Origin: Robiginitomaculum sp.
Lineage (GTDB): Bacteria; Pseudomonadota; Alphaproteobacteria; Caulobacterales; Maricaulaceae
Length of the DNA stretch: 64,000 bases
NCBI GenBank assembly: GCA_026982415.1
Contig: JALSHE010000106.1
Location: 62,001 to 126,000 of the forward strand
Direction: 5' to 3'
Shown here: positions 42,947 through 47,717 of the stretch, piece by piece
Layout: each line of letters begins with the position of its first letter
How positions within the stretch are numbered: position 1 is the first letter of the stretch
Made by a program: the position numbers and the translations under genes
Notes under the pieces: model-generated
Seen by the model: only the letters and a program-made list of their open reading frames with translations
Databases searched by the model: none
Told to the model about the DNA's origin: nothing

Positions 42947-45900
42947 CTATTCTACATTAAATGTGAATTTGGTCTCATGACCTTCACTGGTCACGGCTTT
43001 GCCGTCTACGGTCTTTGCTGAAAAAATTGCTTTTTCTGCAGCTTTTACGGCGGCTTTCTCAAAAGCTTTTTTGAAGCGACCAACACCCGAGCTTTCTTTG
43101 GCCATTGCATTCAGTACTGTGCCATTTGCATCTACATCATAAGAAACAAGTACAGTCGCAATTTTGTTGTGGCCACGGCGCTGGGCTACGGCAGGGTAGC
43201 GCGCAGCTGCCGCTTTGGTTTTCTTGGCGTCCACAATCAATTCAGGTGCCAGTTCCGGTTCGGACTCGACAAGTGTTGCAATAGTTACTTCAGCAGGCGT
43301 CAGGCTGGCTTCCAGTGTTGGTTGTTCATTAACAATTTCCGGCTCCGGCACCAAAGGCTCTACGGCAATTCTTGTATTGTTCAATTCTTCCAAAAGAGAT
43401 GCCGTGACTTTATTGTTTGTTTCCAAGCCAAATAATTGTTGATACTGGTTCATAGCGGCAATAGTGGGGCCGTCCATTTTTCCGCTAGCTTCGCCCGCAT
43501 AAAACCCGAGTGTCGCCAATTTTGTCTGGACATCTTTGGTGACTTGGGAAAATGGTATCGCGACAGGTTCAATGTTTGCGGTTGGAATGGCGCGCGGCTC
43601 TACGTTCAGTACGGCGGCAGGAATGGTTACTTTAACGGGACGGCGTTTTTTTGGTAAGCGGGTCGATGCAACTTGCACCGGTTTTTTCTCGACTGTTTTT
43701 TCAAATTTAACTGTGCTTTCGCCCCATTTTCGCGCCGGAATATTGGTAATATTGGCGACGAGAACCGGTGTGATTTGTTTTGTGGGAAGCTCTTTTATAG
43801 CAAGCACTTCTGTTGCTGCGACAAAGTTTTCACCCTTAGCATCGAGTGTAACCTTTGCAGCCATTGTAGGCTCTGTGGGCAATTCAGAAGGTAATACGAT
43901 AGGGGTTACAGTCTGCGCCGTAATGGTCGCAGGCAAAACGGCTTGCGTGTTGATACGTGTTTTTTCCGTGCTTGCAGTTGTTGTCGTCCCTGACCGCGAC
44001 GCGTTAGAGGCGATGACACCAATGCTGGCTACGGATAACAACAACACGGCAGACAATCCCACGACCGCTTTGCGGCTTAAGCCGCTTTCGTCATCAGCAT
44101 CTGCATCATCTTCGAATTTTTCCAGGTCGCTTTCTTCAGTTTCACTGACTAATTTCACGGCAGGTTTTTGCGAATTATCAACCTTGGCCACTGGCTTTGC
44201 AATGGTTCCAGGTTCAATAACTTGTTCAATTTTTTTTTCGGAAGCTGCTGGGGCATTATCGTCAGCGCTCACATCCTCGGTACGGGCGGCCTTATCACTT
44301 ATAGCTTCATTAATAGCTATGTCGACTTCTTCTTTACGACTAAACAACCCTTTGAGCTTTGACATGACGCTGTCTGAATGATCTTCCGTATTTACTTCCA
44401 TCACCAGAGCGGCTCCACCCAGACCACTGGCCAGCGCTGCCGCTTTCTTAAATGGCACACTTGAAATTTTTGTATCCATTTTTAAAATATCGACTATTTT
44501 GTCAACATTGTCCGGCGTGATTTTTTGAGCTTTCAAATGCTTGATCCGAGCGCGCATTTGCTTGGCCACATCACGGGCCGTTTCAAGATTGGATTGGTTG
44601 TCGGCAATCAGACCGTCGGTTTGACGTAGCGCATTACCTGCTTCGGCGTGAATACTGCTTGCATCTTTCAAATTACCTTTCGCTGCACCGAGCGTATCAC
44701 GTACTTGCTCCAGCGTGGCGCGTGCAGATGCTCCGGCTGTTTCCGCTTGGGTTTTTTGCGCTTCCAAATCTTGCATTTGTTGCTGAGAAATTCCCAGATT
44801 GCGCCGCACATTTTGTGCCTCATCCTGTGCAGATTGCGATATGGCGCGTAATTCCACGGCTTTAGCCGCCGCTGCCTTCGCTGCTATTTCGGCGTCTGCC
44901 AAAGCAGATTTGGCTTTTTGCGCTGCGCTTGCCGTTTTAGCCGCCAGTTTTTGCTGTTCGGCCAGGGCTTTTTCGATTTTCTGCAACTCGTCCTTGGTTG
45001 TCTGCTCGATTTGTATTCGCTTGGATAAACCTTTTTCACTTTCTGACACTTTGCGTTCGGCCATTTCAAAGGTGCGTTTGGCTTGGCCTTTAATCTCCCC
45101 TTGGGATTTCACAAATTCTTTAGCTTTCTTGGCACGAACACTTAATTCTTGGGCTTGGTCTTCAAAGCTACGAATAGCCTCTTTTGTGTCTAAAAGTTCT
45201 GCGTTGATCCGCTTGATGTCAGCCCGGCGTTCTTCGTCTGCCTTGCGGGCCTGTTCTTCGCGTCGCGCAAGTTCGGCGCGGCGAGCCTCTTCGGCGAGGC
45301 GGGCTTCTTCAGCTTTACGTTTGGCTTCAATACGCTTCTCTTCTGCGATGCGGGCTAATTCGGCGAGGCGAGCTTCTTCGGCCAATCTGGCTTCTTCGGC
45401 GAGGCGCTCTGCTTCTATACGTTTTTCTTCGGCCAATTTTGCCGCTTCGGCTTTTGCCAAAGCCCGTTTTGCCCGCTCAGCATCCTGAATGCGTGCCTGC
45501 TCCATTTTATGTGCGGCTTCTGCCAGCCGTGCCGCCTCCAAGGCGCGCTCCTCTGCCGCTTGTTTTGCCTCTTGTGCGCGCATCATCTCCGCAGATGAAG
45601 CATCGGCAACCGCACGGGCTTCTTCGGCCAAGCGTTCAACTTCACTTTGTTGCGGCGCTTCAACCTTGCGGTTACCGCCAAAGCGACCAAACAATCCTCG
45701 TTTGGCTGTTGTGTTGGCTACGTCTGCTAAACTGTTTGTGGCGGAAGGCGCGCCGGATGTAGCCCAAACAATACTCTGTTCAAAACTCAGGCTAGGAATT
45801 TTCAAAGAAACCTTGTCGCCCGCATTGATAGATGCTGCAAATATATCAGGTATGGTGAACCGCGTTACATTTCCCTCGATTTCACTATCCAGCAATGTGC

Positions 45901-46051
45901 TTTTCTCGGATTGGCTCCACCCGGTTGGGGATAACCATTCATTGCCGTTCTTGCACAACTTCACCATAGTCTGCGAACTATCAGCTTGTGCTTCAACTAA
46001 AATTGCCGTGCTATTCTCTGCTTGTTTCATGTTTCCACCCGTACTCGCCAT
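42947..46051 (-). CDS. Chimeric envelope protein: coiled coil, one TM, PG-binding and TonB C-terminal domains
   Basis: This encodes 1034 residues (numbering from ATG 46051, which has GGGG eight bases upstream; an ATG at 46069 has no such site). Residues about 15-100 form a small beta-rich domain without a signal peptide. Residues 136-510 are a long charged coiled coil with repeats such as RLAEEARLAEEARLAE. Residues 510-655 are an acidic linker, and about 662-684 form a membrane span preceded by SRK, so the coiled coil is cytoplasmic. A proline-rich periplasmic spacer follows. A peptidoglycan-binding domain spans about 836-890 (VQTKLATLGFYAGEASGKMDGPTIAAMNQYQ), and a TonB-type C-terminal domain spans 947-1034. 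No family I know has this order; it may span from cytoplasm to wall or outer membrane. Confidence 0.75.
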   Translation of the reverse strand: MASTGGNMKQAENSTAILVEAQADSSQTMVKLCKNGNEWLSPTGWSQSEKSTLLDSEIEGNVTRFTIPDIFAASINAGDKVSLKIPSLSFEQSIVWATSGAPSATNSLADVANTTAKRGLFGRFGGNRKVEAPQQSEVERLAEEARAVADASSAEMMRAQEAKQAAEERALEAARLAEAAHKMEQARIQDAERAKRALAKAEAAKLAEEKRIEAERLAEEARLAEEARLAELARIAEEKRIEAKRKAEEARLAEEARRAELARREEQARKADEERRADIKRINAELLDTKEAIRSFEDQAQELSVRAKKAKEFVKSQGEIKGQAKRTFEMAERKVSESEKGLSKRIQIEQTTKDELQKIEKALAEQQKLAAKTASAAQKAKSALADAEIAAKAAAAKAVELRAISQSAQDEAQNVRRNLGISQQQMQDLEAQKTQAETAGASARATLEQVRDTLGAAKGNLKDASSIHAEAGNALRQTDGLIADNQSNLETARDVAKQMRARIKHLKAQKITPDNVDKIVDILKMDTKISSVPFKKAAALASGLGGAALVMEVNTEDHSDSVMSKLKGLFSRKEEVDIAINEAISDKAARTEDVSADDNAPAASEKKIEQVIEPGTIAKPVAKVDNSQKPAVKLVSETEESDLEKFEDDADADDESGLSRKAVVGLSAVLLLSVASIGVIASNASRSGTTTTASTEKTRINTQAVLPATITAQTVTPIVLPSELPTEPTMAAKVTLDAKGENFVAATEVLAIKELPTKQITPVLVANITNIPARKWGESTVKFEKTVEKKPVQVASTRLPKKRRPVKVTIPAAVLNVEPRAIPTANIEPVAIPFSQVTKDVQTKLATLGFYAGEASGKMDGPTIAAMNQYQQLFGLETNNKVTASLLEELNNTRIAVEPLVPEPEIVNEQPTLEASLTPAEVTIATLVESEPELAPELIVDAKKTKAAAARYPAVAQRRGHNKIATVLVSYDVDANGTVLNAMAKESSGVGRFKKAFEKAAVKAAEKAIFSAKTVDGKAVTSEGHETKFTFNVE

Positions 46052-46403
46052 AATAATATCCCCGCTCATTATTTTTTGTAATTTTGCTTATCCCAAAGCT
46101 AAAAATCCCAAAGTTAAAAATCCCGCTAAAACCCCAGTGCTAAAAACGCATTTAATAAAATTTGTTATTTAACCACACGGAAAGGCTCTAGTAATTTCCC
46201 CTATGACAGGATGTTAACCTTTTGTTTACATTATTACCAGTCACTTAATAGATTTTTAGTGCTGCGGCTTGTGGATAATATTGTACCGCGTTGATTGCCT
46301 GCGCATTCTTACCAAGATTTCATGCAATTGGCTGAAATGTTCAGGTTTCTCTCAGGCTATTTGGTTTATATATTGGTCAATATTGAAGTTCAAGGAGACC
46401 AAA
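46052..46403. promoter_or_regulatory. Intergenic region between divergent chimera and DUF3108 genes
   Basis: This 352-base AT-rich gap shows no credible gene. It contains the 15-bp tandem repeat at 46091-46120 and TTAACC sites near 46169 and 46213, which resemble CtrA half-sites. Promoters for both genes must lie here; I could not fix their positions. Confidence 0.4.
46091..46120. repeat. Tandem 15-bp repeat upstream of the chimeric gene
   Basis: TCCCAAAGCTAAAAA is followed directly by TCCCAAAGTTAAAAA, with one mismatch. Further degenerate units with GCTAAAA follow to about 46148. It lies in the probable leader or promoter of the minus-strand gene starting at 46051. Confidence 0.75.
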
Positions 46404-47303: not shown

Positions 47304-47717
47304 TTAACCGCCTAAACTGACGCCGCCCAATTGGTATCTGATGAGGACCCGGCAATGCTTTAGGGGTTCCGCTGGCGGGTGGAACTGCCATTTTTTGGCA
47401 GCCGCTTTTGTATTGCCGCCGAACATGCCTGCGGGTAGGGAGCGCTCAACGCGGACATTTTGTGTTGCGCCGCTGGCATCGACATCTAGGCGTAAAATGA
47501 CCCAGCCTTGGCGGCCTGTGCGAAATGCGCGGCGTGGATAATTGGGGAGTTCAAAATTAATGGCTGCCAATTTTTCGCCGCCGATACAATCATCCGGATT
47601 GGCATAGCCTTTGACCCATGGGTCGGGCGGATAGTCGGATTTGGGCATGAACGGTTTGCTGGCACAGCCCGATAATAAAGCGGATAAGCCGAGCGCCGAA
47701 AATATCAATGCGCGCAT
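47304..47717 (-). CDS. Lipoprotein with TonB C-terminal domain
   Basis: This encodes 137 residues. The signal peptide ends in the lipobox LLSGCAS (about residue 18). The rest is a short spacer and a TonB C-terminal-like domain (NYPRRAFRTGRQGWVILRLDVDASGATQNVRVERS, AAAKKWQFHPPAEP). There is no ExbB/ExbD-type membrane helix, so it is not a standard energy transducer. Its start codon overlaps the ptsH stop (TAATG at 47715-47719), so it is translated as part of the EIIA-HPr operon. Two cysteines (DDCIGG, KHCRVL) could pair. Confidence 0.75.
   Translation of the reverse strand: MRALIFSALGLSALLSGCASKPFMPKSDYPPDPWVKGYANPDDCIGGEKLAAINFELPNYPRRAFRTGRQGWVILRLDVDASGATQNVRVERSLPAGMFGGNTKAAAKKWQFHPPAEPLKHCRVLIRYQLGGVSLGG

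Follow-up and report, generated by a model that had tools for sequence, protein, structure and literature searches.

A candidate envelope tether of the Robiginitomaculaceae with a coiled coil of conserved length and PG_binding_1 and TonB_C domains

Described relatives and domain architecture

PodJ, a polar scaffold of Caulobacter, consists of cytoplasmic coiled coils, one membrane span and a periplasmic PG-binding domain, and contains Sel1/TPR-type repeats as well (PMC9684454). GltG, a component of the Myxococcus gliding machinery, consists of an FHA domain, a span, a proline-rich TonB-like part and a C-terminal TonB_C domain; it has a role in linking the cytosol and the cell surface, and it was proposed to pass the work of the motor to the surface (PMC3169522). 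In TonB and TolA, the SHLS motif in the span is the motor-binding site (PMC12204202).

The window, that is, the whole stretch of 64,000 nucleotides analysed here (Robiginitomaculum sp., contig JALSHE010000106.1), encodes a protein in which several of these parts are combined. The single open frame described in the initial annotation was confirmed at 42947-46069 (-); ATG 46051, the start chosen there, is also acceptable, and 46030 is a further possible start. The features of the gene are as follows.

42947..46069 (-), whole gene, 1040 aa (open frame; orthologues)
45755..46012 (-), conserved N-terminal beta domain, residues 20-105 (22-member alignment, AlphaFold)
45260..45643 (-), A/E/R-rich helix with six-residue AEEARL-type repeats, residues 143-270, non-heptad
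45317..45403 (-), 29-residue insertion, residues 223-251, from an 87-bp tandem duplication (TRF array 45272-45430, period 87)
44531..45259 (-), coiled coil, residues 271-513, some 34 heptads that keep a single phase; same length in every member
44066..44530 (-), disordered charged linker, residues 514-668, probably cytoplasmic (pLDDT <50 over most)
44009..44065 (-), single membrane span, residues 669-687 (hydropathy, 20 full-length members)
43553..44008 (-), disordered Thr/Ala/Pro-rich linker, residues 688-839, probably periplasmic
43388..43537 (-), PG_binding_1 domain, residues 845-894 (Pfam; Foldseek)
42956..43204 (-), TonB_C domain, residues 956-1038 (Pfam; Foldseek)

In the full-length AlphaFold model, residues 14-101 formed the beta domain and 143-513 were helical, most of 514-840 was disordered, and a helical PG domain and a C-terminus of the TonB type followed; only its individual domains were usable, because the mean pLDDT was 55.8. 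The PG_binding_1-like and terminal TonB_C domains proposed from the sequence were both recovered by Pfam, with scores of 27.8 bits over residues 845-894 (curated cut-off 23) and 33.1 bits over 956-1038 (curated cut-off 24.6), and the same profile search of the 1040-aa protein gave no Pfam match upstream of residue 840. In the model, the PG domain resembled the N-terminal domain of SleB (6tci; Foldseek, TMt 0.71, rmsd 0.9), and the TonB_C region resembled the solved TonB domains 1u07, 6i97 and 2gsk (Foldseek, TMt 0.75-0.80), the matches including TonB bound to BtuB and to FoxA.

A conserved beta domain of 85 residues (about 20-105), which lies ahead of the coil, had been missed in the initial annotation. 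It carries the motif WLSPxGW...KxTLLD...IP..A, with 15 invariant columns in the 22-member alignment, and was predicted to be a beta sandwich when modelled alone (AlphaFold pLDDT 78.3, pTM 0.69). Neither Pfam and NCBIfam nor the sequences and folds of the PDB contained a significant match to this domain; the best fold match was an S-layer domain with a Z of 7.2, which is within the chance range, and Foldseek gave weak Ig-like matches only. The lack of a match does not establish a new fold.

With PodJ, the protein shares the coil, the span and PG_binding_1 in the same order. It differs in the periplasmic Sel1/TPR repeats, since no Sel1 match was found in the window protein or in the other members whereas PodJ-like control proteins gave Sel1 at 77-90 bits, and PodJ has neither TonB_C nor the beta domain. 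No sequence similarity to the PodJ-like protein was detected over the coil and the span (BLASTP best E 2.2 and 2.8). The idea that this protein takes over from PodJ was rejected, because a PodJ-like protein was present in 12/12 genomes tested. The resemblance to GltG lies in an N-terminal domain, one span, a proline-rich TonB-like part and TonB_C at the C-terminus, but in GltG an FHA domain takes the place of the beta domain and the long coil, PG_binding_1 has not been reported, and the gene is encoded with motor and glt genes. No FHA domain was found in the window protein by Pfam, and the fold search of its N-terminal domain returned the weak Ig-like matches only. TonB and TolA share the C-terminal fold and a flexible or helical extension, but their span, which bears the SHLS motif, lies at the N-terminus, they have no PG_binding_1 and no cytoplasmic rod, and the helices of TolA are periplasmic.

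The protein belongs to neither PodJ nor GltG, and its full combination of domains represents a distinct family. The statement of the initial annotation that no described family has this order was too broad, as PodJ (PMC9684454) and GltG (PMC3169522) share parts of it. No Pfam or NCBIfam model covering the whole protein was found. Among the top-scoring matches of 136 family genomes, PG_binding_1 and TonB_C occurred in one chain only in members, and the window's own copy was the only such chain in 385 genomes of the class at E 1e-18. The protein is a variant of known bitopic envelope-spanning scaffolds; parts of its layout have precedents, and no published description of the full combination was found in the literature searched, of which the coverage was partial.

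Length and register of the helical rod

About 370 residues of heptad repeats had been described from the sequence. Helices do extend over residues 143-513 in the AlphaFold model, but the heptads are confined to about 271-513. Residues 291-513 showed a strong periodicity of 3.5 (power 4.91; shuffled sequences reached at most 1.72), whereas the power over residues 143-290 was 0.92 (shuffle 95% value 1.2), the main repeats there being of 6 and 29 residues. When hydrophobic positions were averaged over the members, a single 3.5-residue phase ran from about 271 to about 510, with no Pro/Gly column.

Residues 290-513 had zero gaps in every complete row of the alignment. Over residues 143-290, the window copy exceeded every other member by exactly 29 residues, and it is the only one to carry the 87-bp tandem duplication. 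The inserted 29 residues are not a multiple of seven and are located in the non-heptad helix. Because low-complexity helices may misalign, three blocks were also located one by one in every member, using profiles built from the other members. The spacing from block 1 to block 2 was 208 residues in 21/22 members, the window copy having 237 (208+29), and that from block 2 to block 3 was 45 in 22/22; a few block-2 scores were weak (3-10 bits) yet consistent with the other spacings.

This constancy was accompanied by low identity, with a mean of 0.27 over residues 254-442 of the member alignment. The rod was 233 residues long in 10/10 compared members at a mean identity of 0.19, whereas the PodJ-like coil from the same genomes, used as a control, was variable in length, spanning 225-257 residues (a 32-residue range) despite a mean identity of 0.37. 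The length and register of the rod are conserved more than its sequence, which points to a structural role and makes an extended coil without breaks likelier than a hairpin. The extended length of about 34 uninterrupted heptads is about 36 nm. If the protein is a tether, invariant length at low identity predicts that a change of length should break function while a change of sequence should not, and the duplication in the window copy is a natural variant of this rule within the non-heptad helix.

Membrane span, distribution and descent

The single hydrophobic segment, the SRK on its N-side and the absence of a signal peptide, all noted in the initial annotation, agreed with our results: residues 669-687 had a mean hydropathy of 2.49, compared with 1.2 for the next best segment, and the N-terminus had no hydrophobic segment. 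The span was not drawn as a helix in the AlphaFold model (pLDDT about 30 there), and the case for it is based on hydropathy in 20 full-length members. An excess of K/R on the N side was present in 8/20 members; charge counts by themselves do not decide the topology. In known families the two C-terminal domains are periplasmic, which makes a cytoplasmic coil and periplasmic C-terminal domains probable here. The linkers differed widely in length among members, with 105-219 residues from the span to the PG domain and 41-137 from there to TonB_C, and, judged from these lengths and geometry, both could bridge a periplasm of ordinary width.

With the N-terminal domain as query, the gene was found as one copy each in 22/137 genomes of the Robiginitomaculaceae (Maricaulales), the family in which Robiginitomaculum is placed, and in 6/19 genera; members include Hellea balneolensis, Hellea sp. 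MAG-164, Robiginitomaculum NORP227 and Robiginitomaculum NORP13. Two further genomes (G003 and G140) had the C-terminal part only, at contig ends. Outside the Robiginitomaculaceae, no members of this protein family were found among 299 genomes of the order, and in 385 genomes of the class the window copy was the sole hit. Members grouped by genus in a maximum-likelihood tree, indicating mainly vertical descent, and the patchy presence suggests gene losses. Most genomes of the Robiginitomaculaceae are without the gene, so it does not serve a core function.

Homologues with the same order, for which the initial annotation had called, were found: PG_binding_1 was present in 19/22 members and TonB_C in 19/22, and contig ends cut two of the rest. 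The order was kept in all full-length members except one, TonB_C being retained in 19/20. The exception, in G082 (L067:6291-9083), ends after PG_binding_1, and none of the frames downstream of it encodes TonB_C; that genome, at least, can do without the domain. Two candidates were rejected as members: the TonB_C frame of L073 (G095) extends into the antisense strand of a polA-like gene, and L053, from an unrelated genus, matched the pattern by chance.

No conserved neighbour pointing to a pathway was found among the 22 loci, and an operon role was rejected because the neighbours differ from genus to genus. Pilus genes (secretin, AAA protein) were nearby only in the window's genome and in G011. 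No motor or glt-like cluster recurred beside the 22 loci among neighbour families in at least three loci.

Proposed tethering and alternative functions

Taken together, we consider it an even chance that this bitopic inner-membrane protein crosses the envelope as a passive scaffold and tether. Inside the cell, the beta domain would dimerise or assemble in register together with the fixed-length rod, and the single span would carry the chain out of the cytoplasm. The first flexible linker would let PG_binding_1 reach the wall, and the second would let TonB_C reach an outer-membrane protein. Such a working mode would resemble that of PodJ, as a scaffold with a wall anchor, supplemented by a GltG-like, TonB-type contact with the outer membrane. 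We infer the oligomer, the wall binding, the outer-membrane contact and the absence of motor drive. Coupling of a cytoplasmic structure to the wall and the outer membrane by one chain, as the initial annotation proposed, is likewise a predicted property. The fuller claim, that a single polypeptide physically links a fixed-length cytoplasmic rod with the wall and an outer-membrane protein, as a three-layer tether of a new kind with rod length rather than sequence under selection, is advanced tentatively. It counts against tethering that binding to the wall or the outer membrane is not universal among proteins carrying PG_binding_1 and TonB_C. The lack of a conserved neighbour, the G082 copy without TonB_C and the restriction of the gene to a minority of genomes also weigh against it. 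To our knowledge, few single chains could link a cytoplasmic scaffold to both the wall and the outer membrane; if the tether reading is true, this family offers a simple one-gene system for testing how such links position cell structures.

A PodJ-like polar or local scaffold with wall contact only, in which the partner of TonB_C is periplasmic and the outer membrane is never contacted, would account for the PodJ order of coil, span and PG-binding domain (PMC9684454), which is found with Sel1 in the PodJ-like proteins L071 and L085, and for the G082 member that lacks TonB_C and retains the rest. We consider it unlikely, as TonB_C is otherwise kept in the full-length members and its models are close to BtuB- and FoxA-bound TonB. 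It is improbable that the protein is a TonB paralogue with an added cytoplasmic extension that passes ExbB/ExbD force to an outer-membrane transporter. TonB_C is real by Pfam and Foldseek, the window's genome has five ExbD genes, and GltG, with its additional N-terminal domain, is a precedent for a TonB_C protein that can be linked to a motor (PMC3169522). However, the span had no conserved Ser or His in 20 members, and a separate, dedicated TonB adjoins two ExbD genes elsewhere in the genome (C9); on these two grounds a passive tether or scaffold is likelier than a force transducer. Moreover, no conserved ExbB/ExbD neighbour was found among the 22 loci, and a PG-binding domain between the span and TonB_C would hinder pulling.

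Register shifts can travel along uninterrupted coiled coils, which speaks for a signalling protein that reports the state of the outer membrane or the wall through the coil to the cytoplasmic beta domain. A histidine-kinase-like gene is next to the gene in five members, but all five belong to one genus, and the 150-residue disordered stretch between the coil and the span (AlphaFold) would transmit movement poorly; we regard signalling as very improbable.

Other genes with related domains were also observed. A 137-aa predicted lipoprotein at 47304-47717 (-) of the window, 1.2 kb from the candidate tether gene, has a lipobox-like start (ALGLSALLSGC), a TonB_C match of 49.6 bits and no long linker. 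A 468-aa frame (L086; G000:C113:21102-21605) combines an N-terminal span, a phosphoglycerate-mutase-like RHAEK motif and two TonB_C-like stretches, and about ten kb of adjoining frames at G000:C114:11186-21214 carry Sel1-type repeat matches.
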